Shown in pieces: positions 10-36,205 of a DNA stretch of 64,000 bases. Below the pieces are notes generated by a model. It was not told the origin of the DNA. It was given only the letters and a program-made list of their open reading frames with translations, and ran no database searches. The stretch is from Acidimicrobiia bacterium. GTDB taxonomy: Bacteria > Actinomycetota > Acidimicrobiia > IMCC26256 > PALSA-555. Every line of letters starts with the position of its first letter. Within the stretch, counting starts at the first letter, position 1. The stretch covers positions 1-64,000 of the forward strand of contig JBBECS010000036.1 in the NCBI GenBank assembly GCA_040881685.1, given 5' to 3'. The position numbers and the translations under genes were made by a program.

Positions 10-1191
10 ATGTTTCTGGATTACACCGACGAGCAGCGCGCGCTCCGCAAGGAGCTACGGGAGTACTTCGCCGCGCTGATGACCCCGGAGCTCCGTGAGG
101 AGCTGGGCCCGCCGGGCGAGGGCAGCCCCAAGTACCGAGACGTGGTGCGCCAGATGGGCGCCGACGGGTGGCTCGGCATCGGCTGGCCGAAGGAGTTCGG
201 CGGCCAGGGGCGCGGTGAGCTCGACCAGTTCGTGTTCTTCGACGAGGTGCAACGCGCCGGCGCGCCGTTCCCGTTCGTGACGATCAACACGGTCGGGCCC
301 ACGATCATGACGTACGGCTCGCAGACGCAGAAGGAGCAGTTCCTCCCCGGCATCCTGCGGGGTGAGATCAACTTCGCGATCGGTTACACCGAGCCGGAGG
401 CCGGCACCGATCTCGCGTCACTCCACACCCGGGCCTTCGACGACGGCGACGAGTGGGTCATCAACGGCAACAAGGTCTTCACGAGCGGCGCCAACCAGGC
501 CGACTACATCTGGCTCGCGTGCCGCACCGATCCTGACGCGCCGAAGCACAAGGGCATCTCGATCATCATCGTCCCCACGTCGTCGCCCGGGTTCAAGTGC
601 ACGCCGATCGTCACCGTCGGCAGCGTCGTCACCCAGGCCTCGTACTACGACGACGTGCGTGTGCCCAAGGAGAACATCGTCGGCGACGTGAACGCGGGCT
701 GGCGGCTCATCACGAACCAGCTGAACCACGAGCGCGTCGGGTTGGCCGCACTCGGCGGCAGCACGCACCGCCTGTACGACGACATGGTGGCCTGGTGCCG
801 CGACACGAAGTCGGGTGACGGCGATCAGCGCATGATCGACGTGCCGTGGGTGCAGATGGATCTGGCCAAGGCGCACGCCTTGCTCGAGGCGATGAAGCTC
901 CTCAACTGGCGCATGGCCGCGGCGGTGGCCAACGGAACGCTCACGCCCACCGACGCGTCGGCGGCCAAGGTGTTCGGGGTGGAGACGCAGATCGACGCGT
1001 ACCGCCTGTTCCTCGGCATCCTCGGCGCGGCGGGCTACCTCCCCGACGGGTCGGCCGGCGCCGTGCTCCAAGGTGACGTGGAGCGCATGGCGCGCTCGGC
1101 GCAGATCAACACCTTCGGTGGCGGCGTGGTCGAGGTGCTGCGCGAGATCGTTGCGACGACCGGGCTCGGCATGGTGCGGAGCGGTCGATGA
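10..1191 (+). CDS. chsE2: ChsE2/FadE29-like acyl-CoA dehydrogenase subunit
   Basis: This 393-aa flavoprotein dehydrogenase probably desaturates the 3-carbon steroid side chain (3-oxo-4-pregnene-20-carboxyl-CoA type substrate). It has the acyl-CoA dehydrogenase fold: an N-terminal helical domain, the FAD-contact segment GYTEPEAGTDLAS (about residues 125-137), a central beta domain and a C-terminal helical domain. The N-terminus (MFLDYTDEQ) and segments such as IGWPKEFGG, NTVGPTI and DYIWLACRTDP match my recollection of mycobacterial FadE29. The segment QLNHERV keeps the Glu expected of the catalytic subunit. It opens an operon in the igr order, and the partner dehydrogenase at 2329-3444 lacks the equivalent Glu, as expected for an alpha2-beta2 ChsE1-ChsE2 complex. 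The ATG lies 9 bases from the window edge, so its promoter and RBS are not visible. The steroid substrate is inferred from homology and synteny. Confidence 0.85.
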   Translation: MFLDYTDEQRALRKELREYFAALMTPELREELGPPGEGSPKYRDVVRQMGADGWLGIGWPKEFGGQGRGELDQFVFFDEVQRAGAPFPFVTINTVGPTIMTYGSQTQKEQFLPGILRGEINFAIGYTEPEAGTDLASLHTRAFDDGDEWVINGNKVFTSGANQADYIWLACRTDPDAPKHKGISIIIVPTSSPGFKCTPIVTVGSVVTQASYYDDVRVPKENIVGDVNAGWRLITNQLNHERVGLAALGGSTHRLYDDMVAWCRDTKSGDGDQRMIDVPWVQMDLAKAHALLEAMKLLNWRMAAAVANGTLTPTDASAAKVFGVETQIDAYRLFLGILGAAGYLPDGSAGAVLQGDVERMARSAQINTFGGGVVEVLREIVATTGLGMVRSGR

Positions 1192-1277
1192 GGATCGACG
1201 AAGTCGATGCGCTGCGAACGGAGCGCATGGAGCGAGCGCAGCGAGTGGAAGTAGCGGAGTGGGAGCAGCGCCAATAG
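1188..1277 (+). CDS. Bridging mini-ORF 1 (29 codons) between chsE2 and chsH2
   Basis: The ATG at 1188 overlaps the upstream stop (ATGA) and the TAG at 1275-1277 shares its last G with the GTG start of the next gene (TAGTG). The frame is rich in Arg and Glu (MRIDEVDALRTERMERAQRV, then nine more residues) and contains the repeat-like string GAGCGAGCGCAGCGAG. I do not recognise the peptide. Its exact fit to the gap suggests a role in translational coupling rather than a peptide function. It could be chance, since stops are rare at this GC content, but the same fit recurs in four other gaps. Confidence 0.4.
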   Translation: MRIDEVDALRTERMERAQRVEVAEWEQRQ

Positions 1278-2230
1278 TGACGGACAAGCATTCCTTCCTG
1301 GCCAAGCTGAAGGAGTTCGAGGGGCGCGAGGTCGGCACGCAGGACGGTGCGGACGAGGTGAACCAAGCGATGATCCGGCATTGGGTCGAGGCGATGGGTG
1401 ACCAGAACCCCGTCTACACGGAGCCCGACGTCGCGGCGAAGACGGTGCACGGACAGGTGATCGCGCCGGCGGTGATGCTCCAGGCGTGGGTGATGCGCGG
1501 GATCGCGCCACGGCCGAGCGCGAATCCGTCGGCCCAGGACGATCTCATGGCGCTGGTGGAGAGTGAGGGCTTCACGTCGGTCGTCGCTACGAACTGTGAG
1601 CAGGAGTACGACCGGATGCTGCACCTCGGCGATCACCTGCGGAACCGCACGGTCATCGACTCCGTGTCCGAGGAGAAGGCCACGGGTCTCGGTGTCGGTC
1701 ACTTCATCACGACGCGCGTGGAGTACGAGACGCTCGACGGCGAGCCGGTCGGGCGGCAGATGTTCCGCATCCTCAAGTTCAGGCCGGGTACCGGACGACA
1801 GGCGGCGAAAGCCGAGCCCGAGCAGCACGACCGCCCGAAGCGCCCGCGCCCCGCCATCACGCTCGACAACAAGTTCTGGTTCGATGCCGCGACGGAGCAC
1901 CGCTTGGTGATCCAGCGTTGCTCGGGTTGCGGCGTGCTTCGTCACCCACCCCGCCCGCGTTGCGACAAGTGCGGTTCGTACGAGTGGGACGCGGTCGAGG
2001 CGGGTGGGCGGGGAACCGTCTACAGCTTCGTCGTGAACCACTACCCGCAGGTTCCGGCGTTCGACTACCCGCTCGCCGTCGGTCTCATCGAGCTGGAAGA
2101 GGGCACGCGTCTCGTCGCCAACATCGTGGGCATCGAGCCGGCCGACGTCACGATCGGAATGTCCGTGGAAGTCGAGTGGGTGGAGCACGATCCCGACCTC
2201 ACGCTCCCGGCGTTCCACCCAGCGAAATGA
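1277..2230 (+). CDS. chsH2: ChsH2-like MaoC/DUF35 fusion, steroid enoyl-CoA hydratase subunit
   Basis: The 317-aa protein joins an N-terminal MaoC hot-dog domain (about residues 1-175) to a C-terminal DUF35 domain with a zinc ribbon (CSGCGVLRHPPRPRCDKCGS) and an OB fold. This matches ChsH2 of the igr operon, which pairs with ChsH1 for hydration and whose DUF35 domain binds the Ltp2 aldolase. The hydratase motif reads GDQNPVYTEP: the His expected after the Asp is Tyr, so this half should be the non-catalytic partner, with catalysis supplied by the MaoC protein at 3441-3857. I chose the GTG at 1277 because it overlaps the preceding mini-ORF stop; GTG 1259 in the same frame is an alternative. 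Confidence 0.85.
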   Translation: MTDKHSFLAKLKEFEGREVGTQDGADEVNQAMIRHWVEAMGDQNPVYTEPDVAAKTVHGQVIAPAVMLQAWVMRGIAPRPSANPSAQDDLMALVESEGFTSVVATNCEQEYDRMLHLGDHLRNRTVIDSVSEEKATGLGVGHFITTRVEYETLDGEPVGRQMFRILKFRPGTGRQAAKAEPEQHDRPKRPRPAITLDNKFWFDAATEHRLVIQRCSGCGVLRHPPRPRCDKCGSYEWDAVEAGGRGTVYSFVVNHYPQVPAFDYPLAVGLIELEEGTRLVANIVGIEPADVTIGMSVEVEWVEHDPDLTLPAFHPAK

Positions 2231-2328
2231 TCATCGGAACGAGTGCGACGCGGCGACCGAAGGTCGCTCGCCAGCGAGCGAACGCCCGCGGCTCGGGTAT
2301 CCCGAGCCGCAGTGAGCGAGCGCGTTAG
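2227..2328 (+). CDS. Bridging mini-ORF 2 (33 codons) between chsH2 and chsE1
   Basis: The ATG at 2227 overlaps the chsH2 stop (ATGA), and the TAG at 2326-2328 directly abuts the ATG of chsE1 at 2329. The second half is encoded by a perfect hairpin repeat (2288-2310) read as ARGSGIPSRSERAR. No function is recognised. The geometry suggests ribosomes can pass from chsH2 to chsE1 without dissociating, which would help balance subunits of a hetero-oligomeric pathway. Confidence 0.4.
   Translation: MIIGTSATRRPKVARQRANARGSGIPSRSERAR
2288..2310 (+). repeat. Type-1 palindromic repeat, copy 1
   Basis: Perfect 10-bp inverted repeat GCGGCTCGGG / CCCGAGCCGC around a TAT loop, followed by AGTGAGCGAGCG. 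The same architecture (GCGG..GGGTAYCCC..CCGC, then CAGCGAGCG) recurs at 3868, 32755 and 36169. Here it lies inside mini-ORF 2. Confidence 0.75.
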
Positions 2329-3444
2329 ATGGACTTCAGCCTCAGCGAAGAGCAGCAGGCGGTTCGCGACCTGGCTGAGCAGATCTTCCAGGGCCAGGCG
2401 ACCGTCGAGCGCGTCAAGGCGTGCGAAGCGGGCGAGGAGCGCGTCGACCGTGACCTCTGGCGCGCGCTCGCCGACGCGAACCTGCTCAGCATCGCCGTTC
2501 CCGAACGGGACGGCGGCAGCGGCCTCGGGATGATCGAGACATGCCTCGTGCTGGAACAGCAGGGGCGCACGGTCGCGCCCGTTCCCTACTGGGCCACGAT
2601 CGTGTGCGGCGCGCTGCCGATCGCCGAGCTCGGCACGCCGGCCCAACGTGAGCGCTGGCTTCCACCGATCGTGGGCGGAACCGCGTTCGTGAGCGCGGCC
2701 GTGGCCGAGTCCGGGCTGAACGATCCGTTCCGCCCCGGTGTACGGGCCACGCCCGACGGCAACGGGTGGCGCCTCGACGGTATGAAGCCGTCCGTGCCCG
2801 CCGGCCATGTCGCCGACGCGTTGCTCGTGCCCGCGGCGACGGACGACGGCGTCCGCGTGTGCCTCGTCGAGAGCGGCGCGGCCGGTGTGAGCCGCGAGTC
2901 GGCCGAGACGACCGACCGGTCGCTCGTCGCCCACTTCACGTTCGATGGCGCGCCCGCCGAGCTGCTCGGTGACGAAGCATCGCCTGACCGAGCGCTCGCT
3001 TGGATCCTCGACCGGGCGCTCCTCGGTCTCGCGGCCATCCAGGTGGGAGTGTGCGAAGCCGCGCTGGCCATGGCCGCCGAGTACACGAACGGGCGAACCC
3101 AGTTCGAGCGTCCGCTGGCGAGCTTCCAGGGCGCGCAGATCCGAGCCGCGGATGCATACATCGACACCGAGGGCATCCGGGTCACCACGCTCCAGGCCGC
3201 GTGGAAGCTCGACGCCGGTCGTGACGCGACCACTGACGTGATGGTCGCCAAGTGGTGGGCGTCGGAGGCCGGGCAGCACGCGGTGCACAACACGCAGCAC
3301 TTGCACGGCGGTATGGGCGCGGATGTCGACTACCCGGTCCATCGGTACTTCCTCTGGGGCAAGCAGATCGAGGACACCCTCGGCGGCGCGAGCGCGCAGC
3401 TCGCACGGCTGGGCCGAGCATTGGCGGAGGCGACGACCACGTGA
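2329..3444 (+). CDS. chsE1: ChsE1/FadE28-like acyl-CoA dehydrogenase subunit
   Basis: This 371-aa acyl-CoA dehydrogenase is the probable non-catalytic partner of the 393-aa subunit at 10-1191. It has the N-terminal motif MDFSLSEEQQ, the C-terminal FAD/interface segments RTQFERPLASFQ and HLHGGMGADVDYPVHRY, and a shortened, poorly conserved central FAD loop (AVAESGLNDP instead of TEPxAGSD). At the position of the catalytic Glu in the partner (ERV), this protein reads DRALLGLA. In the mycobacterial ChsE1-ChsE2 heterotetramer only one subunit type carries the base, so the pairing fits. It follows mini-ORF 2 directly and its stop overlaps the next start (GTGA). Confidence 0.82.
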   Translation: MDFSLSEEQQAVRDLAEQIFQGQATVERVKACEAGEERVDRDLWRALADANLLSIAVPERDGGSGLGMIETCLVLEQQGRTVAPVPYWATIVCGALPIAELGTPAQRERWLPPIVGGTAFVSAAVAESGLNDPFRPGVRATPDGNGWRLDGMKPSVPAGHVADALLVPAATDDGVRVCLVESGAAGVSRESAETTDRSLVAHFTFDGAPAELLGDEASPDRALAWILDRALLGLAAIQVGVCEAALAMAAEYTNGRTQFERPLASFQGAQIRAADAYIDTEGIRVTTLQAAWKLDAGRDATTDVMVAKWWASEAGQHAVHNTQHLHGGMGADVDYPVHRYFLWGKQIEDTLGGASAQLARLGRALAEATTT

Positions 3445-3857
3445 GCGCCACGACCTCACTCAAGTACGGCGACGTGAACGTCGGCGACGAGCTCCCCAAG
3501 CTCGAGATCCCGCTGACCCGTACGTTGATCGTGGCCACCGCGATCGCCTCCCGCGACTACCAGGACGTGCACCACGACCCGGGCCTCGCCCAGGAGCGTG
3601 GCTCGCCCGACATATTCATGAACATCCTCGCGAGCAACGGCTTCGTCGGTCGCTACGTCACCGACTGGGCCGGGCCCGACGCGCTCCTCAAGTCGGTGAA
3701 GATCCGCCTCGGTGCGCCCAACTATCCGGGCGACACGATGGTGATGAGCGGTCAGGTCACCAAGAAGGAGGACGGTGTGGTCGAAGTGTCGCTGCGTGGC
3801 GCCAACAACCTCGGCGACCACCTATTGGGCACCGTCGTGCTGGAGCTCCCGAAATGA
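3441..3857 (+). CDS. chsH1: ChsH1-like MaoC hydratase subunit
   Basis: A 138-aa single MaoC hot-dog domain. The motif ASRDYQDVHHDP keeps the Asp (Asp39) and His (His44) in the D-x4-H spacing of hydratase-2 enzymes, so this is the catalytic half that should pair with the His-lacking MaoC domain at 1277-2230. The predicted reaction is hydration of the 17(20)-enoyl-CoA side chain to a 17-hydroxy acyl-CoA. The GTG start at 3441 overlaps the chsE1 stop (GTGA), and its own TGA overlaps the ATG of mini-ORF 3. Length and order match Rv3541c-type genes. Confidence 0.85.
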   Translation: MSATTSLKYGDVNVGDELPKLEIPLTRTLIVATAIASRDYQDVHHDPGLAQERGSPDIFMNILASNGFVGRYVTDWAGPDALLKSVKIRLGAPNYPGDTMVMSGQVTKKEDGVVEVSLRGANNLGDHLLGTVVLELPK

Positions 3858-3943
3858 GCGAGCGTGAGCGGACCGGGTATCCCGGTCCGCAGCGAGCGGG
3901 GCCTGAGCGGCCCGGCGCTGTGCGCCGGGAGCGGGAACGATGA
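3854..3943 (+). CDS. Bridging mini-ORF 3 (29 codons) between chsH1 and ltp2
   Basis: It starts at ATGA over the chsH1 stop and ends at ATGA over the ltp2 start, so it is coupled on both sides. The peptide core GYPGPQRAGPERP is encoded by a type-1 palindromic repeat and is nearly identical to the core of mini-ORF 5 (36050-36205), which also lies immediately upstream of an Ltp2-like gene. No protein family is recognised. The recurrence of frame, position and both overlaps argues against coincidence. Confidence 0.5.
   Translation: MSERERTGYPGPQRAGPERPGAVRRERER
3868..3890 (+). repeat. Type-1 palindromic repeat, copy 2
   Basis: Perfect 10-bp inverted repeat GCGGACCGGG / CCCGGTCCGC around TAT, followed by AGCGAGCGGGGCCTGAGCGG. 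A second GC-rich stem (CCCGGCGC, then GCGCCGGG) follows at 3911-3929. Compare 36143-36191, where the same two-hairpin arrangement occurs on the other strand. Confidence 0.8.
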
Positions 3944-5124
3944 GCGAGAAGCACCGCTTGCTCGACGCAGGCGCCATCGTGGGCATCGGCGCGACGGAGT
4001 TCTCCAAAGAGTCGGGTCGCTCCGACCTCAAGCTGGCGATCGAAGCGTGCGAAGCCGCGATCGCCGACGCGGGCCTGAAGCCCAGCCAGGTGGACGGCAT
4101 GGTCACGTTCACCCAGGACACCAACCCGGAGATCGAGATCGCCAAGAGTCTGGGCGTAGGCGAACTCAGCTTCTTCTCGCGTATCCATCACGGCGGCGGC
4201 GCAGCGTGCGGCACGATCCAGCAGGCGGTGCTCGCGGTGAACGCAGGTGTCGCCGACTACGTCGTCTGCTACCGCGCGTTCAACGAGCGTTCCGGGCACC
4301 GGTTCGGGACTGGCGTACAGGACCGCCAGCCCGCGGCCACCGCCGACACCGCGCACTTCTCCTGGTACTCGCCGCACGGTTTGCTCACACCGGCACAGTG
4401 GGTTGCGATGTTCGCTGCCCGCTATTTGCACGAGTATGGGGCGACCAGCGAAGACTTCGGTCGCATCGCGGTAGCCGACCGTAAGCATGCGGCCAAGAAC
4501 CCGAAAGCGTGGTTCTACGAGAAGCCGATCACCCTCGAGGACCACCAGGAGAGCCGGTGGATCGTCGAGCCGTTGCATCTCTTGGACTGCTGCCAAGAGA
4601 GCGACGGGGGCCAGGCACTCGTGGTGACGACACCCGAGCGCGCGCGCGATCTCAAGGGCGTTCCCGCGATCGTGCGTTCCGCGGCGCAGGGCGCGGGCGA
4701 GAACCAGGACATGATGACGAGCTACTACCGCCCGTCGATCACCGGGCTTCCCGAGATGGGGCTCATCGCCCGGCAGCTGTGGAACACGACTGGCCTCGGG
4801 CCCGACGACATGCAGGCCGCGATCATCTACGACCACTTCACCCCGCTCGCGCTCCCGCAGCTCGAGGAGTTCGGGTTCTGCGGCCGCGGCGAGGCGAAGG
4901 ACTTCATCGCCGACGGCAACATCGAGCTCGGCGGCCGTCTCCCGATCAACACCAACGGCGGTCAGCTCGGTGAGGCGTATATCCACGGGATGAATGGCAT
5001 CGCCGAGGGTGTGCGCCTCATCCGCGGAGACTCGTACAACCAGCCGCCAAACGTCGAGCATGTACTGGTCACCGCGGGAACGATGGTGCCGACGAGCGCA
5101 CTGGTCTTCGGCAAGGCGGCGTAG
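3940..5124 (+). CDS. ltp2: Ltp2-like steroid side-chain aldolase (SCP2-thiolase fold)
   Basis: A 394-aa member of the SCP-x/thiolase superfamily. It closes the igr-like operon, where Ltp2 performs a retro-aldol cleavage of the 17-hydroxy C22-CoA ester to androstenedione and propionyl-CoA, together with the DUF35 domain of ChsH2. The nucleophilic Cys of true thiolases is not conserved: GGGAACGTIQQA has Ala at the aligned position by my reading. The C-terminal loop is NTNGGQLGEAYIHGMNG rather than the GHPxGATG of thiolases. Both features fit an aldolase. The start overlaps the stop of mini-ORF 3 (ATGA). Two further paralogues lie at 13572-14753 and 34845-36053, each with its own DUF35 partner. 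Confidence 0.82.
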   Translation: MSEKHRLLDAGAIVGIGATEFSKESGRSDLKLAIEACEAAIADAGLKPSQVDGMVTFTQDTNPEIEIAKSLGVGELSFFSRIHHGGGAACGTIQQAVLAVNAGVADYVVCYRAFNERSGHRFGTGVQDRQPAATADTAHFSWYSPHGLLTPAQWVAMFAARYLHEYGATSEDFGRIAVADRKHAAKNPKAWFYEKPITLEDHQESRWIVEPLHLLDCCQESDGGQALVVTTPERARDLKGVPAIVRSAAQGAGENQDMMTSYYRPSITGLPEMGLIARQLWNTTGLGPDDMQAAIIYDHFTPLALPQLEEFGFCGRGEAKDFIADGNIELGGRLPINTNGGQLGEAYIHGMNGIAEGVRLIRGDSYNQPPNVEHVLVTAGTMVPTSALVFGKAA

Positions 5125-5133
5125 TCCTCAACA

Positions 5134-6387
5134 TCACGCCGGGCAGTTGACTCCGCCTCGTGCGGCGATCTCGCAGAACGTGCCGCGGCCGATTCGCCAG
5201 AACCCGTCTTCGAATACCGCGTACCCCGTCGTGTTGGCGGTCGCGAGCTCGCCGTCGTTGAACACGTCGAAGTTCAAGCGCGCGTAGGTCGGGCTGTCGA
5301 ACTCGATCCAGTTGATGTGCGCGACGAGCTTTCCTTCTAGCGAGCCTTCGTACGAGCTCCGCGTGAGTGGGTCGGAGCTCTTTGCCTTTTCGGCCGCGGC
5401 CTCCGCCGCGACAGGATCGGCGAATGGGTGACCACCCTCGACCGAGAGCTCGGACGGAGTGGGGCTCGGGGTCCCCATCGAGGCATTGATGGCGTCGACG
5501 ATCTGCTGTTCCGCCGCCTCCTCGTCGAATCCCGGTGCCATTGTCGTGGTCGTGGGGGCCTCGACGGCGTTGATCACCAGGCTGTTGAGCACCGCGAAGC
5601 CCTGCGCGAGCAGCTCCTCGGAGGGATCCTGCACGCTGATGATGCGCGCGAGGAACATCCGATCGCCGTCGGTGAAGGTGATCTGGCGGAAGTGGTTCAC
5701 GGGGGCAGCATCCGGACCTGTGATCGGCGGCAACGTCAACGACGTCGACGTCGTCGGGGCGGTGTTGTCCGGCACCGAATCCGGAGTGGTCGTTGCCGAT
5801 GTGAGCGGCGTTTGTGCAGCGAAGAGCGTTTCGAGTGGCACGTTCGGGCAGTCGCCGCTGGCGGGCATGTTCGCGTTCGTGAAGTCGTCCGGACGGATCT
5901 GGAACGACTCGGGCGAGTACGTGCCGAGGTCGCCGACCATGTTGAGCGCGTCGCCGGGGCGGTACTCGTAGAGCGTCACGTACGCAGACCTGGTCGAAGG
6001 CGTGTGCTCATCGATCGCGCAGGCCTGCATCGGCTCGCCTGCCGGCCGTTCGGCCGTACCCACGACGAGCACCTCGCCGGGGCTCATCGCCCGCTCGACG
6101 AGCGGCAGCTGCTGCCAGCCATCCAGGAGCTCGACGGTCACCGCCGCATCGGCGTTCGACGCCTGGGAACCCGCGGCGATCTCCACCCGACGCCCGTCGT
6201 CTCCGCCGAATGCGGCGGAAACCCCGACGCCGGCGAGCACGACGACCGCAGCAATCGCACCGGCACGAATCGTGAACCGTCGTCGCCGCAGTCGCGCGTG
6301 AGCGATGGCGGCCGTTGCTCCGACGTCGATCCGACGCTTTGGTGGAGGTACGGCTCCGTGCAGGAGATCTCGTACGTGGTCACTCAT
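5134..6387 (-). CDS. Single-pass membrane protein coupled to a sigma factor
   Basis: A 417-aa protein with a basic N-terminus, one transmembrane segment (about residues 42-60, AGAIAAVVVLAGVGVSAAFG) and a long exported part. Thr/Pro-rich linkers (TTSTSLTLPP, TTTTMAP) separate two regions, and the C-terminal part ends in a Cys-containing segment (FWRIGRGTFCEIAARGGVNC). It overlaps the sigma-factor gene by 4 bp (ATGA) and is translated with it. By position it may be an anti-sigma or signal-sensing partner, but I see no zinc-binding anti-sigma motif in the about 40 cytoplasmic residues. Its specific family is unknown to me. Confidence 0.7.
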   Translation of the reverse strand: MSDHVRDLLHGAVPPPKRRIDVGATAAIAHARLRRRRFTIRAGAIAAVVVLAGVGVSAAFGGDDGRRVEIAAGSQASNADAAVTVELLDGWQQLPLVERAMSPGEVLVVGTAERPAGEPMQACAIDEHTPSTRSAYVTLYEYRPGDALNMVGDLGTYSPESFQIRPDDFTNANMPASGDCPNVPLETLFAAQTPLTSATTTPDSVPDNTAPTTSTSLTLPPITGPDAAPVNHFRQITFTDGDRMFLARIISVQDPSEELLAQGFAVLNSLVINAVEAPTTTTMAPGFDEEAAEQQIVDAINASMGTPSPTPSELSVEGGHPFADPVAAEAAAEKAKSSDPLTRSSYEGSLEGKLVAHINWIEFDSPTYARLNFDVFNDGELATANTTGYAVFEDGFWRIGRGTFCEIAARGGVNCPA

Positions 6388-6935
6388 CGCATACCTCCGG
6401 TGGCTAGACGGCCTGGCCTGGTCACGGGGTCAGTGACCAGACCGGCTGTTCGCAGGGCTTCGAGCGCGCGACGCGTGTGCGTCTTGACGGTGTTCTCCGG
6501 GCAACCCATCAATGCCGCGACCTCGAGTACGGAGAGGTCGGCGAAGTAACGGAGCACGAGCGCGCGTCGTTGGGGCTCGGGCAGCGCTGCGAGGGCAGAT
6601 CGAACCGCGATGCGGGTCGAGGTGTCGGGATCGTGCACCACGAGTTCGAGCTGTTCGAGGTGTTGGTAGCGCCGACGAACGGCCCGGCGCCGGAACTGGG
6701 ACTTGGCCAGGTTGAAAGCCACTCGGTGGGCCCACGCGGACCTGGACGCCTCGCTGCGCACCGTCAACCAGTGCTGACACGCGCGCACGAGCGTCTCCTG
6801 GGCAAGATCTTCCGCCAAGTCGCGGTCACCGGTGTACAGGGAGAGGGAGCCCACGAGGCGGGGCCATTCGAGCCGGCAGAACTCGGCCAGCTGCGGTTCG
6901 ACCTCCACATGGTGCAAGACGTCCAGGTCCCCCAC
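6384..6935 (-). CDS. ECF RNA polymerase sigma factor, SigE-type
   Basis: A 183-aa sigma-70 factor with region 2 (DRDLAEDLAQETLVRACQHW, about residues 37-56) and region 4 with the helix-turn-helix ALPEPQRRALVLRYFADLSVLEVAALMGCPENTVKTHTRRALEALR. This is the two-domain organisation of ECF factors, in the style of the actinobacterial SigE/SigK-like group. It directs core polymerase to alternative promoters. Its gene leads a two-gene unit with the membrane protein at 5134-6387, the usual arrangement of a sigma factor and its regulator. The start is uncertain by a few codons (an ATG is used; a Val codon lies 10 codons further in). Confidence 0.85.
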   Translation of the reverse strand: MGDLDVLHHVEVEPQLAEFCRLEWPRLVGSLSLYTGDRDLAEDLAQETLVRACQHWLTVRSEASRSAWAHRVAFNLAKSQFRRRAVRRRYQHLEQLELVVHDPDTSTRIAVRSALAALPEPQRRALVLRYFADLSVLEVAALMGCPENTVKTHTRRALEALRTAGLVTDPVTRPGRLATGGMR

Positions 6936-6978
6936 GAGGTTTCACGCTGGGCGAGCACCGGCTCGCTACGGTCAGGGG

Positions 6979-8155: not shown

Positions 8156-8191
8156 CGGTCTGCCCAGAGTCCAGATGGAAGAGGGGGAGCG

Positions 8192-9331: not shown

Positions 9332-9352
9332 CCAACCCAAGGCGGTGCTCTG

Positions 9353-9994: not shown

Positions 9995-10051
9995 CCCTCT
10001 CGACGCGCGGAGGCTACCTTCGCCGGTCCTGACGCACTCGGGACCCTCCGC

Positions 10052-12280
<2,229 letters not shown>

Positions 12281-12284
12281 GCGC

Positions 12285-23822: not shown

Positions 23823-23839
23823 CAGGCGACCGCTATGAT

Positions 23840-26031: not shown

Positions 26032-26093
26032 GGCGGACAACCTATTTCCCACTCTCGGCCCTTCGGGTCGGGCCGTTCGGGCCACGGCTGGCT

Positions 26094-26116: not shown

Positions 26117-26168
26117 CGACGCCCGCCTCTGGCTCGTGCACCGTCAAGCCGAGCTGAGGCACGCAGAG

Positions 26169-27443: not shown

Positions 27444-27452
27444 TAGGGCGGA

Positions 27453-28876: not shown

Positions 28877-30057
28877 CTGCGCGGGGTGAACGTGACCGGG
28901 AGGTTGCGCGGACCCCAGATCTGCCCGTGCGACCACTCGATGGTGGTGCCGGGCACGAGCTCGTAGTCGGGGAGTCGGCGCAAGATCTCCTGGACCGCGA
29001 CCTCCGACTCGAGTCGCGCCAGGTGCATCCCGAGGCACCGGTGGATACCCATGCCGAAACCGAGGTGCTTGTTCGGCTTGCGCTCGAAGATCACCTCATC
29101 GGAATCCTCGAAGATCGTGTCGTCCCGGTTGGCCGACGCAGTGAGCAGCAGAACCGGATCGCCCTCGCGCAACTGCTGTCCGCGCAGCTCGGTGTCCTTC
29201 TTCATGACGCGTGCCGGCGACCCGGGAGGGAAGCAACGCAACAGCTCGTCCACTGCTGCGGGAATGAGCGATCGGTCGGACACCAGACGCGCCCGCTGAT
29301 CGGGGTGTTCGGCCAACCACCAGAGCATGCTGGCGATAAACGACGACGTCGTGTCGAACCCCGCCATCATGATGAGGATGCAAAACATCACCCGCTCCTC
29401 GTCGGTGAGCGGGCGGTCGTCAACAGTGGCCTGCACGAGCAGCGTGATCAGGTCGTCGCGTGGCTCGTGCTCGCGCTGGGCGAGGAGTGCCATGAAGTAC
29501 TCGTTCATCTCTTCGTAGGCCAGGGCCGCGCTCTCGGGCTCAGTGGCTGTCGCCTGCGTGATCCGGTGCGCCCAGTCCTCAAACTTCACTCCGTCGTCGT
29601 ACGGCGTCCCCATGATGTCGGCGATGACGCTCGCCGGAAGCTTGCGGGCGAAGTCCCAGAACAGGTCCGCTTCACCTGTCTCGATGAATGCGTCGATCAG
29701 CACACTCACGCGTTTGCGGATCTCGGGCTCGTACTCGGTCATCTTCTGCTGCGTGAAGTACGGCTGCACGATCTGGCGGTAGAACGAGTGATCCGGAGGG
29801 TCAGACATCGTGAGCGGGAATCGACGCTCGCCATGTCCGCTGTTCGGGATCGTCACGACAAACGACGAGAAGTGGTCGGTGTCGAAGTAGACCTCGTGCA
29901 GGTCGTCGTAGGTGGTGATGATCCAGAAGCCGCCGTGTTGGTCGCTGCGCGCCACCGGGCACTGCTCACGCAAGACCGCGTACGCGTCCAGCGGGTCCTG
30001 CATGAACGCGACGTCGTGATGGTCGAAATGCTCGGTGACCTTCTCGACGTCGCTCAT
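28873..30057 (-). CDS. Cytochrome P450
   Basis: A 394-aa soluble P450: I-helix MAGFDTTSSF (acid-alcohol pair intact), ExxR in VDELLRCF, heme loop HLGFGMGIHRCLGMHLAR. The ATG at 30057 follows a G-rich RBS region (GGGGGG at 30061-30066). The upstream region holds a degenerate copy of the 20-bp palindrome (30072-30091). No redox partner is adjacent. The open frame extends upstream without P450 homology, so the ATG is preferred. Confidence 0.87.
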   Translation of the reverse strand: MSDVEKVTEHFDHHDVAFMQDPLDAYAVLREQCPVARSDQHGGFWIITTYDDLHEVYFDTDHFSSFVVTIPNSGHGERRFPLTMSDPPDHSFYRQIVQPYFTQQKMTEYEPEIRKRVSVLIDAFIETGEADLFWDFARKLPASVIADIMGTPYDDGVKFEDWAHRITQATATEPESAALAYEEMNEYFMALLAQREHEPRDDLITLLVQATVDDRPLTDEERVMFCILIMMAGFDTTSSFIASMLWWLAEHPDQRARLVSDRSLIPAAVDELLRCFPPGSPARVMKKDTELRGQQLREGDPVLLLTASANRDDTIFEDSDEVIFERKPNKHLGFGMGIHRCLGMHLARLESEVAVQEILRRLPDYELVPGTTIEWSHGQIWGPRNLPVTFTPRS

Positions 30058-30071
30058 CGATCCCCCCTCGC

Positions 30072-30091
30072 GATCAACGCCGTGGTCGATG
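30072..30091. promoter_or_regulatory. Degenerate copy of the 20-bp palindromic operator
   Basis: GATCAAC, six bases, GTCGATG. Arms match the consensus at 12 of 14 positions with the correct 6-bp spacer. It is 14 bp upstream of the P450 start (30057, minus). It may be a weak site or coincidence. Confidence 0.3.
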
Positions 30092-30121
30092 AAAGTAGAG
30101 GGGCGCGGGCATGCTGTCCAG

Positions 30122-30370
30122 ATGAACATCCCGAAGCGGTGGGCGCGGTTCGCGACCTGGAGCGCCATCGTCGTTCTCATCCCGGTTGCGCTCGTCATGC
30201 TGGGTACTGGGATCGCCGACTACGAGAGCGCCGGCAAGCTTGACGAGCGTGGCGCCGAGGTGCCGGCTGAGGTCGTGCACGTGACGGTGAACACCGGCGG
30301 GGAGGACGGCCCGACGAGCACGCTGACCATTCGGTTCAAGCCGCGAGGCGATGACCCCACGAAGACATGA
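30122..30370 (+). CDS. N-terminal part of a split DUF3592-like membrane protein
   Basis: An 82-aa protein with one transmembrane helix (WSAIVVLIPVALVMLGTGIA, about residues 13-32), then GAEVPAEVVHVTVNTGGEDGPTSTLTIRFKPRGDDPTKT and stop. The end falls in the middle of what looks like a single small beta domain: DUF3592-like proteins continue with a segment like that opening the next frame. It overlaps the next ORF at ATGA. Either a real split or a frameshift (mutation or sequencing error). Confidence 0.6.
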   Translation: MNIPKRWARFATWSAIVVLIPVALVMLGTGIADYESAGKLDERGAEVPAEVVHVTVNTGGEDGPTSTLTIRFKPRGDDPTKT

Positions 30371-30588
30371 CGAACGTTTCGTACGACGGCGACTTCGAGC
30401 ACGACCACCCGCGGGCCGACCGTCAAGGCATCCGCATCGAGTACGACCCCGAGAACCCGGAACATGCCCGGGTCGTGGGCCAGTCGGGCGACGCGCTGGA
30501 CCGGATGATCGGCGGCGCCGTCTTCACCAGGGTGATCGTGGCGTTCGCGATCGTCTCCCGCCGCCGCCCCGACCTCCTCGGCGGGTGA
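30367..30588 (+). CDS. C-terminal part of a split DUF3592-like protein
   Basis: A 73-aa frame beginning TNVSYDGDFEHDHPRADRQGIRIEYDPENPEHARVVGQSGD, which reads as the direct continuation of the preceding ORF (compare the usual order: variable strand, then V.YDP..P..ARV in DUF3592 proteins). Its ATG overlaps the upstream stop (ATGA). The C-terminal part (FTRVIVAFAIVSRR) could be a second membrane segment. It should be considered one gene with 30122-30370 until the frame is verified. Confidence 0.5.
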   Translation: MTNVSYDGDFEHDHPRADRQGIRIEYDPENPEHARVVGQSGDALDRMIGGAVFTRVIVAFAIVSRRRPDLLGG

Positions 30589-30639
30589 GCGGGGACAGCG
30601 TTGGGGCCCGAGCGGGGAGCCCCTGCCCCGGCCAATTCC

Positions 30640-30667
30640 CCAATCCCACTTAAAGTGGGCAGATTGG
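30640..30667. promoter_or_regulatory. Inverted repeat upstream of L,D-transpeptidase
   Basis: CCCACTT, A, AAGTGGG (30645-30659) nested in the wider arms CCAAT (30640) and ATTGG (30663). It lies 39 bp before the start of the transpeptidase gene and 52 bp after the preceding stop. No T-run follows, so an operator is as likely as a terminator. Confidence 0.4.
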
Positions 30668-30705
30668 CCCTCAAACCAGCACTCTGAGTGGTCGAAGGGG
30701 TGGGC

Positions 30706-31512
30706 ATGCGCTCGCCCCGTCGACTGTCGGCCCTCCGGCTGGTCCTCTCGATCTTGGTGCCTGTCGGCCTCGTGGCGGGCGTGGTCTTCAGCGTCACCGC
30801 GGAGGCAGCCACGACCTTCCGCCGCGACGTGGCCCAGCAGCCGGTCGCCAACACCCGCGTGGAGCCAACGGCGCCAGCCCAGCCCGTCCAGCCGGTCGAG
30901 CCCGCCGATCCCCGGGTCATCGTCACCCCGCCCGTCGGGGCTGGCCTCGACATCTACCCGGCGGCCGGAGCTCCGGTCCCAAGCCAAGGTCTGCCCGCGT
31001 TCAACGAGCTCGGATCCCCGCTCGTGCTCTTGGGAGTTCAGCAGTACGGAGACTGGATCCAGGTGCTGCTGCCTACCCGACCCAACGGGTCCACCGGATG
31101 GGTGCGCGCGCAGGATGTGAGCAGGTCGGTGCCGGCCCACCGCGTCGAGATCTCGCTCGCCGCTCACGAGCTGAAGGTCGTTCGCATGAGCGACGACGCG
31201 GTTCTCCTGACGACCGCGGTGGGGATCGGGCGGCCAACGACCCCCACACCGTCGGGCCAGTTCTTCGTGCGCGATCACTTCCCGACGGGCTCGATGAACC
31301 ACCCGTACGGGCCGTTCGCCTTCGGCCTCTCCGGTCACTCCGACGTCTTCTACCAGTTCGGCACCGGTGACGGACGGATCGCGATCCACGGCACGAACCA
31401 GCCGTCGAGCATCGGAGCCGACGCCTCGAACGGTTGCCCGCACGTGGCGAACGACATCGTGCTCGCGCTGATCGACTACCTCCCGCTCGGCACTCCCGTC
31501 ATCATCTCGTAG
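30706..31512 (+). CDS. L,D-transpeptidase (YkuD) with SH3-like domain
   Basis: A 268-aa exported peptidoglycan cross-linking enzyme. Signal anchor LRLVLSILVPVGLVAGVVFSV near the N-terminus, a Pro-rich linker (APAQPVQPVEPADP), an SH3-like segment ending GWVRAQDVSRSV, and a C-terminal YkuD domain (VEISLAAHELKVVRMSDD through HGTNQPSSIGADASNGCPHVAND). The catalytic Cys lies in SNGCPH, a variant of the usual SHGCIR. It forms 3-3 cross-links in the cell wall. ATG 30706 is chosen over GTG 30688. Confidence 0.85.
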   Translation: MRSPRRLSALRLVLSILVPVGLVAGVVFSVTAEAATTFRRDVAQQPVANTRVEPTAPAQPVQPVEPADPRVIVTPPVGAGLDIYPAAGAPVPSQGLPAFNELGSPLVLLGVQQYGDWIQVLLPTRPNGSTGWVRAQDVSRSVPAHRVEISLAAHELKVVRMSDDAVLLTTAVGIGRPTTPTPSGQFFVRDHFPTGSMNHPYGPFAFGLSGHSDVFYQFGTGDGRIAIHGTNQPSSIGADASNGCPHVANDIVLALIDYLPLGTPVIIS

Positions 31513-31527
31513 CCCCGAACGTCGGTT

Positions 31528-32727
31528 TCAGACGACGCCGGACTCCCTGAGCTTCTCAAGATCCTCAGCGGTGACGCCAAGCAGGCCGCAGTAGATCTCT
31601 TCGTTGTGCGCGCCGATGTCGGGCCCGGTCCAACGCACGGAGCCCGGCGATGCAGACAGGCGCGGTACCGCGTTCGGCATCTTGACCGGGCCGAGATACG
31701 GGTCGTCGACGGTGATGATCGCGTCGCGGTCCTTGTAGGCGGGGGAGTCGACAATGTCGGCGGCGTCGTGGGCCATGGCGATCACTGCGCCGGCCTCCTC
31801 GAACGCGTCGAGCACTTCCTGTGCCGAGCGTGCCGCGATCCACTCGCCGACCGCGTCGAGTAGGGCTTGCATGTTCTCGGGCACGTTGCGCGACACGGGT
31901 GTGGCGAACCGTGGATCATCGGCGAGCTGCCCGCCGCCCACGAGCAACAGCATCCGACGGATGACGGTCTCGGCTGCCGCTGACATCGAGAGCCATTTGC
32001 CGTCGGCCGACTGGTAGACGTTGCCAACCATCAAGCCGAGCGGGAAGCGGTTCCCGGCGCGCTCGGTGACGACGCCGAGCTGGTCGTACGTGGGGATGTG
32101 CCACTCGATCATGCGGAACAGCGTCTCGAACAAGGCCAGGTCGACGATCTGCCCGGTGCCCGTGCGTTCGCGGTCGTGGAGCGCGGCCAGCACGCCGTAT
32201 GCACCCATCAGCGCCGTAGACGTGTCGCCGAGCGAGAAGCCGATGTGATTCGGCGGTCCCTGGGGAAAGCCAGACAGGTGCAGCGCACCACTCAATGCCT
32301 CGGATGGGCGTCCGAACATCGGCTTGGGGTTCGACGCGGCGCTCTGCTGCCCGTAGCCGCTGATGCGGAGCATGATCAGGCGCGGGTTCTCGGCGTGCAG
32401 CCGCTCCCACCCGATGTTCCAGCGCTCCATCGTTCCTGGACGGAAGTTCTCGACGAGCACGTCGGCGTCGCGCGCCAGGCGCATCAACAGCTCCTGACCC
32501 TCTGGCGTGCGCAAGTCGAGAGTGATGCAGCGCTTGTTCCGGCCGGCCACCGTCCACCACAGAGGGCGGTCGTCCTTCCGCGGTCCGAGCCGGCGCAGCC
32601 CGTCGCCCTCCGGCGGCTCGATCTTGATCACGTCGGCGCCCAGGTCGCCGAGGAGCGTGGCGGCGAACGGCCCGGCGAGCACGTGACCCACGTCGATGAC
32701 GCGCAGGTCGTCGAGCGCCTCGCTCAT
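31528..32727 (-). CDS. CaiB/BaiF family CoA-transferase
   Basis: A 399-aa class III CoA-transferase: LRVIDVGHVLAGPFAATLLGDLGADVIKIEPPEGDGLR at the N-terminus, NKRCITLDLRTPEGQELLMRLARDADVLVENFRPG, and QIVDLALFETLFRM with the catalytic Asp. It moves CoA between acyl groups, usually activating a carboxylate with succinyl-CoA or similar. It is the last gene of the six-gene minus-strand operon, and its ATG overlaps the CitE-like stop (ATGA). Confidence 0.87.
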   Translation of the reverse strand: MSEALDDLRVIDVGHVLAGPFAATLLGDLGADVIKIEPPEGDGLRRLGPRKDDRPLWWTVAGRNKRCITLDLRTPEGQELLMRLARDADVLVENFRPGTMERWNIGWERLHAENPRLIMLRISGYGQQSAASNPKPMFGRPSEALSGALHLSGFPQGPPNHIGFSLGDTSTALMGAYGVLAALHDRERTGTGQIVDLALFETLFRMIEWHIPTYDQLGVVTERAGNRFPLGLMVGNVYQSADGKWLSMSAAAETVIRRMLLLVGGGQLADDPRFATPVSRNVPENMQALLDAVGEWIAARSAQEVLDAFEEAGAVIAMAHDAADIVDSPAYKDRDAIITVDDPYLGPVKMPNAVPRLSASPGSVRWTGPDIGAHNEEIYCGLLGVTAEDLEKLRESGVV

Positions 32728-33683
32728 GTGTCCTCCTGCATTGCCTCGCTCGCTGCGGTCGGGGATACCCCGCCCGCGGGCGCTCGCTCGGTCGGCGCGG
32801 AGTGCGCGTGGCGAGTCAGGAGGTCGCGGGCGACGCGCACCATCGCCGCGTCGACCATCTGGCCCTCGTGATCGAGGGCGCCCATGCCGTCCCGCGCCGC
32901 GCCGTCCCACGCCTCGAGGAGACGCTTGGCTGCCGCCACATCGTCGGGCGTTGCGCCGAACACTTCGTTGACGATCTCAACGTGTGATGGGTGGATGACC
33001 ATCATCCCTTCGTAGCCGATGGCTCGTGATTGCCGGGCGAACGCCTCGACCTCGTCGAGCTCTCGAAGGTTGGTCACGACGCCGGTCATCGGGTTGGGGA
33101 CACCAGCCGCCCGCATGTCGACGAGGATCTCCGAACGCAGGTACAGCGTCTCCAGGAACAGCGGTGGCGTCCAGCCGAAGCCGAGCGCATGGGCCAAGTC
33201 ACCGTTCAGCGCCGCGGCTCCACCCATGTACGCCACCCGGGGAGACGACGACGCCAGGTCGAAGGCGCGGCGAGCGGCCGCCGCATTCTCCACGCTTGGC
33301 CACACGCGCACCGAGCCGCTGGGGAGTCCGGCCCGACGTTCGCGCTTGTCGAGACCTTTGGCCACGCGCTGCACCTCGGCGGGCTCGGTCACTTTGGGCA
33401 CCATCACGGCGACGAGACCCTGCTGCACGATGGCGTCGAGATCGGCATCGAGGCAGCTCTCGGAGAGCGCGTTGATGCGGACGCAGACGGCGGGCGCTGC
33501 ATCACCGGCACCGAGCCACTCCGCCACGACGGCGCGGGCGTCACCACGCTCGGTCGCGGGCACGGAGTCCTCGAGGTCGAGGATGACCGCGTCTGCGCCC
33601 GATGCAACCGCTCGCTCGCGGAAGTCGCGTCGATGTCCGGGGACGAACAGCGCGGAGCGGATCCGCGGTGGCGCCGCGCTCAT
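32724..33683 (-). CDS. HpcH/HpaI-CitE-like C-C lyase with repeat-derived tail
   Basis: A 319-aa TIM-barrel lyase of the citrate-lyase-beta/malyl-CoA lyase family: RSALFVPGHRRDFRERAVASGADAVILDLEDSVP (Asp and metal-binding Glu region), VWPSVENAAAARRAF, YMGGAAALNGDLAHALG and GMMVIHPSHVEIVNEVF. It cleaves or forms a beta-hydroxy- or beta-methylmalyl-type CoA. The last about 20 residues (TERAPAGGVSPTAASEAMQ) are encoded by a type-1 palindromic repeat and are not family sequence. The start overlaps the amidohydrolase stop and the stop overlaps the CaiB start (both ATGA). Confidence 0.85.
   Translation of the reverse strand: MSAAPPRIRSALFVPGHRRDFRERAVASGADAVILDLEDSVPATERGDARAVVAEWLGAGDAAPAVCVRINALSESCLDADLDAIVQQGLVAVMVPKVTEPAEVQRVAKGLDKRERRAGLPSGSVRVWPSVENAAAARRAFDLASSSPRVAYMGGAAALNGDLAHALGFGWTPPLFLETLYLRSEILVDMRAAGVPNPMTGVVTNLRELDEVEAFARQSRAIGYEGMMVIHPSHVEIVNEVFGATPDDVAAAKRLLEAWDGAARDGMGALDHEGQMVDAAMVRVARDLLTRHAHSAPTERAPAGGVSPTAASEAMQEDT
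32755..32777 (-). repeat. Type-1 palindromic repeat, copy 3
   Basis: On the minus strand GCGGGCGGGG, TAT, CCCCGACCGC (9 of 10 pairs), followed by AGCGAGCGAGGC. It lies in frame inside the 3' end of the CitE-like gene, in the third reading frame relative to copies 1 and 2. Confidence 0.7.
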
Positions 33684-34783
33684 CGCGACTCGCCGAGGCG
33701 ATACAGGTGGCGGGCGTTCCCGGCCAGGATCAGGTCGCGCTCGTCCTCGGGCACACCCGAGAAGTCGGCGTTGATCGTGCGCCAGGAGTTCGGCCAGTCC
33801 GCGCCCACGTGCGGGTAGTCGCTCGACCACATCATCCGGTCGGGCCCGATGTCGGCCCGGTTGCGCACCGCGAAATGATCCGTGATGTACGTGTACGAGA
33901 AGTTGCGGTCCATGTACTCACTCGGCGGCATCGTGAGCTTGAGGCCCGAGCCTCGGCCCAGCCGGTGGTAGCGGTCGTCGATCTGCTCCTTGAAGTACGG
34001 GATCCAGCCGCAATCCACTTCCGCGAGTACCACTTGGAGCTCGGGGAAGCGGTCGAGCACGCCGGAGAAGATGAGCTGGAGGATGCGCTGCGGCACGTCG
34101 TAAAAGCGCACGTCGCCCGGCAGCTTCGTCTTGTGTGACGTGGGCATGCCGGCCACGAGCGTGACGTGGATGGACAGCGGGACGCCGGCGTCGACCGCAA
34201 GGCTCCACAGCGCGTCGTCTTCGGGCTCGATGTCGAGTCCCCCATGCGGGTATCGGCTGAGGAGCCCCCCGACGATCCCGGGGTTGACGACGGCCCGTTC
34301 GAGCTCGCCGACGGCGTCGGCCACGCCGCTGTTCGGGATCATCGCGAGCCCGCATAGGCGGTTGGGCGCGTGACCGCAGTACTCGGCGAGCCAGTCGTTG
34401 TACGCGCGCACCATCGCGAGGTGGTACTCGGCGTCTTCGTTGGCGGCAATGGCCCACGAGAGACGGGGGGTGGGGTAAAGGATCTCGGCGTCGACGAAGT
34501 CACGGTCCTGCTCCGCGAGTCGCCCGGCCGGGTTGTGCGCGCCCTCCCGCACGTCCTCCCACTTGATCCATGGCCGCATCGCGTCGGGATCCATGCCAGC
34601 TGAGGCGTTGAGCCCGAAGTTGATCGGATCCTCGACCCCTTCGATGACCCACGCGTCGCCCTCGGCGAACCGCTCCATGCGCGGCGCTCGGTCGCGCAAC
34701 TTCGCCGGTACCCGTGAGGTGTAGAGGTCGGGTGGCTCGAGCACGTGGCTGTCAGCCGAGATGAGCCGGTACTGGTGCTCCAT
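33680..34783 (-). CDS. Amidohydrolase-2 family protein
   Basis: A 367-aa ACMSD-like metal-dependent hydrolase or decarboxylase. The N-terminus is LISADSHVLEPPDLYTSRVP, a central His lies in GVPLSIHVTLVAG, and a late Asp in MMWSSDYPHVGADWPNSW. It is closely related in layout to the protein at 23915 but has no N-terminal extension: its ATG overlaps the stop of a mini-ORF made from the same type-2 repeat (TGATG). It belongs to an operon of SDR, DUF35, aldolase, amidohydrolase, lyase and CoA-transferase. Confidence 0.85.
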   Translation of the reverse strand: MEHQYRLISADSHVLEPPDLYTSRVPAKLRDRAPRMERFAEGDAWVIEGVEDPINFGLNASAGMDPDAMRPWIKWEDVREGAHNPAGRLAEQDRDFVDAEILYPTPRLSWAIAANEDAEYHLAMVRAYNDWLAEYCGHAPNRLCGLAMIPNSGVADAVGELERAVVNPGIVGGLLSRYPHGGLDIEPEDDALWSLAVDAGVPLSIHVTLVAGMPTSHKTKLPGDVRFYDVPQRILQLIFSGVLDRFPELQVVLAEVDCGWIPYFKEQIDDRYHRLGRGSGLKLTMPPSEYMDRNFSYTYITDHFAVRNRADIGPDRMMWSSDYPHVGADWPNSWRTINADFSGVPEDERDLILAGNARHLYRLGESR

Positions 34784-34845
34784 CAGTTCGGGTCGATTCC
34801 GTTACGGCGTCCCGGCCTCCGGCCACGCCTCCACTGCATCTCCAT
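34783..34845 (-). CDS. Bridging mini-ORF 4 (20 codons) between aldolase and amidohydrolase
   Basis: The frame MEMQWRRGRRPGRRNGIDPN starts by TGATG overlap with the aldolase stop and ends by TGATG overlap with the amidohydrolase start, so it fits the gap to the base at both ends. It consists almost entirely of type-2 repeat copy C. Very basic; not recognised. Confidence 0.45.
   Translation of the reverse strand: MEMQWRRGRRPGRRNGIDPN
34790..34842 (-). repeat. Type-2 palindromic repeat, copy C
   Basis: 53 bp on the minus strand, GAGATGCAGTGGAGG through GGAATCGACCC, aligning to copies A and B with about nine substitutions and a one-base deletion (hand alignment). The deletion changes the frame relative to A and B, and the frame closes exactly at the downstream start. 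Confidence 0.65.
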
Positions 34846-36053
34846 CAGGGCGTGCCTCTCGTGAGCAGCATGCACCCGGCCACCGGCCCGCCACCGTTGG
34901 CGACCACGGCAGTCTGCGGCGCGTCGAGCTGGCGATCACCGCTGTCACCGCGGAGCTGGAGGCAGGCCTCGTGCAGAAGGCCGAAGCCGTGGAGTCGGCC
35001 GGCCGAGAGCTGACCGCCGCAGGTGTTCAGCGGGACATCACCGTCGCGTGCGATGCGCTTGCCACCTTCGACGAACTCGCCGCCGGTGCCTGGTTCGCAG
35101 AAGCCGAGCGCCTCGAGCCAGGCCAGCGCCAGAAAGCTGAAGCCGTCGTAGAGCTGGGCGAGGTCGACGTCCGCCGTCGTCAGGTCGGAGCGAGACCACA
35201 GGTGCGCGGCCGCGTCGCGCGCCGCCATCGTGGTGAGGTCATCGAACTGGTCCCACGACGGGCGACCGCGCATCGCAGTGCCCACGGCGTGCACGTGAGC
35301 CGCCGGGCGGCGCGCGTCGGGCGCCGCATCGACGTGCGAGACGACGACTGCCGTTGCACCGTCGACCGGCAGGTCGCAGTCGAACAAGCACAGCGGCGTA
35401 CTGATCATGCGAGCGCCGAGGTACTCGTCCAGCGAGAGCGGCTCGCGGAACACTGCCCTTGGGTTGTCTGCCGCGTTGGCTCGGTCGGTCAGTGCGATCT
35501 GCGCAAGCTGCTCGCGGGTGGTGCCGTACCGGTCGAAGTGAGCCTGGGTGTAGAGCGCGAGCAGGTTGGCGCTCGAACCAGCACCGAACGGGATCGACCA
35601 TTGCCGGTACCCGTCGACTCGCGCGTTGCCGAGACCAGCCGCATGCGCTACCTCGGCGCGAGACCCCGAGCCCTGCTGACTCGACTCGGTGACCGTCCTC
35701 CAGACGACGACGTGGCGCGCCAGCCCGGATGCGATCGCTAGGCACGCGGCGACCACGGCGCCCAACGGCGCCGGACCCTCGGCGCCGCCGTGGCTCCATC
35801 CCAGCTCGAGGCGGAGCGCATCTTGCACATCGCGCACGCCGGCGCTCGCGTACCGGCCCGCGTCACGAGCATTGAGGGCGCCGCCGGGGAACGTGGCCAG
35901 ACCGTCGATGTCGGCGCGGGCGAGGCCGGCGTCCTCGATCGCGGCGAGCACCGCTTCGAGCGTGAGGTCGAGGTTCGTCCGCTCGAGGTTCCGGCCAATC
36001 GCGGACTGGCCCAGACCCGTGATTGCCGAACGCCGCTCGAGGATCTCAGTCAT
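34845..36053 (-). CDS. Ltp2-like acyl-CoA aldolase/thiolase-fold protein 3
   Basis: A 402-aa SCP-x/thiolase superfamily protein. The nucleophile region reads SHGGAEGPAPLGAVVAACLAIASG without the CxxG Cys, and the C-terminal loop is PLNTCGGQLSAGRLHGFGLLHE, as in the two other Ltp2-like proteins of this window. Its DUF35 partner is encoded just upstream (36202-36612) with a coupled mini-ORF between. By analogy it performs a retro-aldol or related C-C cleavage on a CoA ester. Confidence 0.8.
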   Translation of the reverse strand: MTEILERRSAITGLGQSAIGRNLERTNLDLTLEAVLAAIEDAGLARADIDGLATFPGGALNARDAGRYASAGVRDVQDALRLELGWSHGGAEGPAPLGAVVAACLAIASGLARHVVVWRTVTESSQQGSGSRAEVAHAAGLGNARVDGYRQWSIPFGAGSSANLLALYTQAHFDRYGTTREQLAQIALTDRANAADNPRAVFREPLSLDEYLGARMISTPLCLFDCDLPVDGATAVVVSHVDAAPDARRPAAHVHAVGTAMRGRPSWDQFDDLTTMAARDAAAHLWSRSDLTTADVDLAQLYDGFSFLALAWLEALGFCEPGTGGEFVEGGKRIARDGDVPLNTCGGQLSAGRLHGFGLLHEACLQLRGDSGDRQLDAPQTAVVANGGGPVAGCMLLTRGTP

Positions 36054-36205
36054 CGCTTCCGCTCTCGGCGCTTCGCGCCTCCATGGATCGTCGTCGCAAG
36101 CGACGACTCGGTGCTCCGGCGGTCGGCGGAGCCGCCGCCTGCGCGGGGCCGCTCCGGCCCCGCTCGCTGCGGGCCGGGGTACCCGACCCGCGGACGCGCG
36201 CTCAT
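36050..36205 (-). CDS. Bridging mini-ORF 5 (51 codons) between DUF35 and aldolase genes
   Basis: The ATG overlaps the DUF35 stop and the TGA overlaps the aldolase ATG (ATGA at both ends). The N-terminal part, with the core GYPGPQRAGPERP, matches mini-ORF 3 at 3854-3943, encoded by the same two-hairpin repeat in the same frame and position. The C-terminal half (SADRRSTESSLATTIHGGAK and RRERKR) is different and also ends in an Arg-rich run, as mini-ORF 3 does. No family is recognised. Confidence 0.5.
   Translation of the reverse strand: MSARPRVGYPGPQRAGPERPRAGGGSADRRSTESSLATTIHGGAKRRERKR
36143..36191 (-). repeat. Type-1 palindromic repeat, copy 4 (double hairpin)
   Basis: Two adjacent inverted repeats: GCGGGGCCG / CGGCCCCGC around CTC (36143-36163) and a 10-bp arm pair with one mismatch around the TAC core (36169-36191). 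Read on the minus strand from 36205, ATGAGCG...GGGTACCCCGG..CCGCAGCGAGCGGGGCC matches 3854-3907 in order and spacing. Confidence 0.75.

Follow-up and report, generated by a model that had tools for sequence, protein, structure and literature searches.

Open frames bridging repeat-filled gaps in two operons of an Acidimicrobiia genome: a possible translational relay

Why should gaps between consecutive genes of an operon be spanned, almost to the base, by short open reading frames? The question is raised by two catabolic operons in a 64,000-nt stretch of DNA from an Acidimicrobiia bacterium (C36:1-64000, here termed the window), part of a genome of 3.11 Mb in 54 contigs. The first operon, which codes for two acyl-CoA dehydrogenases, a MaoC/ChsH2-type protein, a MaoC protein and a thiolase, resembles igr-like side-chain degradation. 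The second codes for an SDR, a ChsH2-type OB/zinc-ribbon (DUF35) protein, a thiolase, an amidohydrolase, an HpcH/HpaI-type protein and, according to a preliminary description of the sequence, a CaiB-type protein. Both operons were singled out post hoc in that description, which proposed that ribosomes pass through dispensable peptides encoded in the gaps, keeping the subunits of complexes coupled.

Five bridged gaps and the repeats that fill them

All five frames are open as originally described, beginning on the upstream stop codon and ending on the downstream start. Mini-ORF 1 (1188..1277, forward strand; ATGA to TAGTG, 29 codons) is flanked by genes for an acyl-CoA dehydrogenase and the MaoC/ChsH2-type protein, and its gap is filled by a repeat of family D (GAACGGAGCG.ATGGAGCGAGCGCAGCGAG.GGAAGTAGCGGAG.GGGAGC) with five repeat partners. 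The gap of mini-ORF 2 (2227..2328, forward; ATGA to TAGATG, 33 codons) is filled by a hairpin of family A, matched by our covariance model R1 at 2265..2333 (forward, E=2.9e-11), and has nine partners. Mini-ORF 3 (3854..3943, forward; ATGAGCGAG at both ends, 29 codons), between the MaoC and thiolase genes, contains hairpins A and B (R1 match at 3845..3913, forward, E=7.5e-9) and has ten partners. On the reverse strand, mini-ORF 4 (34783..34845; TGATG to TGATG, 20 codons) lies between the thiolase and amidohydrolase genes with a family C repeat and three partners, and mini-ORF 5 (36050..36205; ATGA to ATGA, 51 codons) separates the ChsH2-type OB/zinc-ribbon (DUF35) gene from the thiolase gene. 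The latter gap has 15 partners and holds hairpins A/B plus further hairpins, with a family A core on the reverse strand at approximately 36146..36214. Folding energy is low in gaps 2, 3 and 5 (z -3.1 in gap 5). These are the only bridged cases among the 22 window gaps of 40-250 nt, and among the 23 co-directional window gaps of 40-300 nt exactly these five have repeat relatives elsewhere in the genome; gap-against-gap comparison gave no relatives for the other 18. These 18 include a weaker sixth case that had been put forward at 43165-43212, where 2 nt separate the frame from the upstream stop and another 2 nt from the next start, and which we have dropped.

In the best-defined family, the palindromic core is centred on CGGGTAYCCCG and flanked by GAGCGANCGNCCGC and GCAGNGAGC; gaps 1, 3, 4 and 5 are filled or shared by other families. 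When copies are picked by their flanks alone, 91% of mirrored positions are paired, against 44.5% in shuffles, and in an alignment of 32 copies, picked partly for their hairpin, both sides change in 7 of 10 pairs, indicating covariation. Hairpin-core copies are mostly intergenic (82/96); in co-directional gaps, 48 have the direction of the genes and five the opposite one. No known Rfam family matched at gathering score. R1 matches occur in 18 of 61 genomes, and the core is abundant in the own genus, missing from most of the family and abundant again in other families, a patchy distribution, like that of a mobile element, for which no transposase was found. R1-rich relatives from other families of the order are G012 (142 matches), G016 (62), G014, G029 and G052. 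The Y1 transposase domain of RAYTs (PF01797) is absent from the own genome, as it is from all the R1-positive relatives searched, and a RAYT as the mover of the repeats was rejected on that account.

Several loci outside the window deserve mention in their own right. At C2 87483-87622 (L008:7483-7622, reverse strand), a 71-nt unit bounded by GTGA is present twice in exact tandem, giving two chained 25-codon ORFs that lead to the GTGA of the next gene, an arrangement that resembles a tandem MIRU locus; the same site is a plain 4-nt overlap in the sister species, G001. At C36 301727-302014 (L152), tandem ATGA-bounded units with 72-nt ORFs are partly masked by a run of N, which suggests a variable-number array unresolved by the assembly. 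Finally, contigs C17, C45 and C16 carry a hairpin repeat of another kind that is less rich in GC (TTTTGGCGTCGA...TCGACGCCAAAA, for instance at C17 39587); it is often found between convergent genes and in both orientations.

Bridging and reading phase across the genome

The preliminary description held that five gaps out of five ending on the next start exceed chance. Counts were made under our own annotation, obtained with a codon-pair gene caller applied to 1.19 Mb and then to 1.89 Mb (61%) of the genome, and repeat membership was defined by gap-against-gap BLAST, counting same-strand relatives among 428 co-directional gaps of 40-300 nt. A measure based on 12-mers occurring four or more times was passed by 96% of coding segments, and the BLAST comparison replaced it. 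Repeat partners were found in 114 of the 428 gaps, and no coding control had three or more. Bridging was seen in 25 of the 114 repeat-bearing gaps, the bridged ones being 55-163 nt long, against 4 of the 314 non-repeat gaps (1.89 Mb; Fisher 5e-12), counts that are not fully independent because three pairs of bridged copies are near-identical. Adding one or two bases to the repeat gaps left 2.6 and 4.8 bridged, respectively; removal of the window left 20 of 109, and the result was stable under five gene-calling variants. Under a looser definition, 26 of 265 gaps are bridged genome-wide, compared with 12.7 +- 2.8 when tails are swapped. The claim thus stands against both the swapped-tail and the frameshift controls, the excess being concentrated in repeat-bearing gaps and non-repeat gaps lying at chance level. 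In about 78% of repeat-bearing gaps there is no bridging frame.

The tests, reading phase and repeat membership among them, were devised once the five cases were known. Stop-start overlaps are found at the two ends of repeat gaps in 49% and 55% of cases, compared with 22% and 30% otherwise. The 39 repeat gaps with overlap-type codons at both ends fall into phases 0, 1 and 2 as 27, 7 and 5, and the frame is open in 26 of the 27 in phase and in 3 of the 12 out of phase. Phase 1 could be depleted by called N-terminal extensions, but the ratio of phase 0 to phase 2 (27:5, p=6e-5) is immune to start-site extension artefacts, and of the genic copies a single one was close to the start of a gene. Across all gaps of 20-300 nt with relay-permitting ends, 43 of 83 are in phase, and 38 of 77 without the window (p=0.0026); outside the window, such gaps are open in 32 of 38 in-phase and 15 of 39 out-of-phase frames. 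Bridged copies come in many different lengths and encode unrelated peptides, the core being read in frames 0, 1 and 2 in 4, 4 and 3 of them.

Junctions in related genomes

Comparison of 154 orthologous junctions with G001 reveals that coupling, whether by overlap or by bridging, is found in the other species at 10 of 14 bridged junctions and at 22 of 97 unbridged gaps (p=5e-4). All three igr-like junctions are also bridged in G001, at 127, 14 and 22 nt in place of 85, 98 and 82 nt, the third beginning and ending in the same ATGAGCGAG; in G006, as in other members of the family, that third junction is a 4-nt overlap. The second junction overlaps in many other relatives, and in G002 the TAG of the upstream gene directly abuts the ATG. 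Given the states of this junction in G002, G001 and the others, the TAG that ends mini-ORF 2 is probably the former stop codon of the upstream gene. The expectation that aligned gaps keep their frame and overlaps while the peptide drifts was borne out in part: coupling is kept as sequence and length shift, but gap 4 is 8 nt long and unbridged in G003, and gap 1, at 154 nt, is blocked in G002.

The link between repeats and bridging was not reproduced within G001, where bridging occurs in 1 of 20 gaps with repeats, perhaps because numbers are too few. The phase excess over all gaps of 20-300 nt in G001 is 12/21, and Actinomycetia loci present no such excess (6/17). At junctions with a 4-nt overlap in one of G000 and G001 and a gap in the other, gap length modulo 3 is unbiased (7/20). 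Very short gaps, of 1-19 nt, are mostly in phase in the own genome (18/24) and in G001 (9/9); the corresponding figures are 3/11 at other Acidimicrobiia loci and 5/11 in Actinomycetia.

A putative relay through inserted repeats

Termination-reinitiation coupling requires an overlap or a very short distance, with almost none left once a gap measures about 20 nt (PMC10666635); a hairpin following a stop codon can insulate the next gene (PMC7518266). We put at roughly 0.6 the probability of the following account: the repeats moved into stop-start junctions that were coupled, and frames along which ribosomes can be relayed across them were retained by selection or favoured by insertion. Short, GC-rich palindromes of several families lie scattered between operon genes and share their orientation; some copies would have landed where a stop overlaps the next start (ATGA, TGATG), an arrangement under which translation is coupled. 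Coupling would be broken by a gap full of hairpins, and a frame spanning the repeat would restore both overlaps: the ribosome terminating on the upstream gene might re-initiate at once, cross the hairpins while making a throw-away peptide and then re-initiate on the next gene. Selection, or an insertion preference plus selection, would favour in-phase copies in whichever of the three frames works. The repeats, their hairpins and orientation, the end types, the excess of one phase and the kept coupling in one sister genome were observed directly; we infer that the mini-ORFs are translated, that re-initiation takes place at their ends and that selection rather than insertion chemistry sets the phase. 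The five gaps owe their existence to their membership of hairpin repeat families, and the relay makes more sense as an adjustment to repeats that were inserted than as a spacer by design. As regards the relay as initially proposed, its architecture recurs genome-wide and coupling is kept between two species, but it is not universal, most repeat gaps being unbridged. Heteromers are known in the families to which the flanking genes belong, and a role in matching the subunits of complexes is therefore plausible.

The nearest known counterpart is the MIRU of mycobacteria, which reportedly shares the orientation of its flanking genes. MIRUs (Supply et al. 1997, as described in PMC12548453 and PMC2734929) are dispersed mobile repeats of 40-100 bp bearing an ORF that overlaps the adjoining gene by 4 nt and becomes coupled to it (PMC12548453). 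Compared with this description, the repeats reported here are likewise short, dispersed through operon intergenic regions and oriented along the genes, occur in tandem at some sites and correspond to short or overlapping junctions in relatives without the repeat. The likeness is less clear-cut in two further traits: a short ORF coupled to the flanking gene is seen in 25 of 114 repeat gaps, well over the controls, but is lacking in most copies, and overlap-type ends are enriched on both sides, with empty 4-nt-overlap sites at some loci but not all. They differ in being palindromic, with covarying stems, in comprising several families, in residing in an Acidimicrobiia lineage and in filling some gaps longer than classic MIRUs. 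About 22% of repeat-bearing gaps are bridged. The repeats work like MIRUs, but as they lack a fixed intrinsic ORF they are not filed as such. It is possible, if somewhat unlikely, that they are nonetheless MIRU-type elements that bring their own ORF and insert into stop-start overlaps by duplicating NTGA, so that bridging is built in and needs no later selection. The NTGA/TGATG ends enriched on both sides of repeat gaps, the two 71-nt NTGA-bounded tandem units on C2 with their empty 4-nt site in G001, the patchy spread over families and the MIRU precedent itself (PMC12548453) are congruent with such an element. The reading of the core in three frames, the widely varying lengths, the bridging of unrelated families and the large majority of unbridged copies argue against it.

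That the hairpins act as RNA elements (insulators of the RTS or REP kind, stabilisers or leader elements), with open frames as a by-product of stop-poor sequence, is improbable. Covarying stems, low folding energies, the strand bias and the many unbridged copies would all be expected, but a scarcity of stops predicts neither the phase distribution nor the excess of overlapping ends, and few out-of-phase frames in repeat gaps are open. REP/BIME elements are similar in being abundant, oriented hairpin repeats with a conserved stem between genes and differ in having a cognate RAYT; we know of no REP that is bridged by mini-ORFs. A ribosome termination structure (PMC7518266), too, is a stable hairpin shortly past a stop codon; it insulates the next gene, whereas a bridging frame would make the hairpin part of a translated ORF and abolish insulation. 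It is very hard to regard the mini-ORFs as genuine small-protein genes, in spite of their lengths (20-51 codons in the window) and of overlapping start and stop codons being typical of operon genes (PMC6728339): their codon score is -0.15 per codon, compared with 0.20 for genes, none exceeds 0.043, peptides and frames are unrelated and sequences are replaced in relatives. Such non-coding codon usage, together with the reading of one core in three frames, agrees with the proposal that the peptide is dispensable, and makes the act of translation, rather than its product, the likely object of selection. Chance combined with selective attention, gaps with such ends being bridged now and then anyway, is just as hard to credit. 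The post hoc choice of operons, the rarity of stop codons at 68% GC and the chance level of non-repeat gaps speak for it, but the excess in repeat gaps persists without the window and under every gene-calling variant, and holds against shuffled or frameshifted controls.

Under the relay through inserted repeats, the process proposed at each end of a mini-ORF is the termination-reinitiation described at ATGA/TGATG overlaps (PMC6728339, PMC10666635), with the difference that known pairs overlap directly and here an intervening repeat would be translated through. The odds appear about even that the relay is independent of frame and sequence, selection having repeatedly fitted throw-away ORFs over unrelated hairpin families in coupled junctions; if so, ribosome hand-over between genes would shape the invasion of operons by repeats genome-wide. 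Should the relay itself be real, it would show how repeats invade operon interiors without breaking operons, account for a type of 'empty' small ORF seen in compact genomes of high GC and carry the MIRU idea beyond mycobacteria, to a distant class of actinobacteria whose repeats are of a different kind. It would also offer a natural comparative experiment in which selection on translational coupling itself can be set against selection on the encoded peptide.

A variant of the same outcome is found in the second operon, where the tail of the HpcH/HpaI-type gene is a family A copy (32732..32800, reverse strand, E=2.3e-9) read in frame. The resulting C-terminal tail, HAHSAPTERAPAGGVSPTAASEAMQEDT (32734-32792), is kept in G003, and the gene overlaps the next one by 4 nt; coupling is apparently preserved here through a C-terminal extension and not a mini-ORF. 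Repeat cores also lie inside long open frames, at L028 18293-18353 and 18418-18480 and in about ten other genic copies, one 704-codon frame holding two of them. These genic cores recall in-frame insertions of palindromic elements into proteins, or gene fusions via the repeat.
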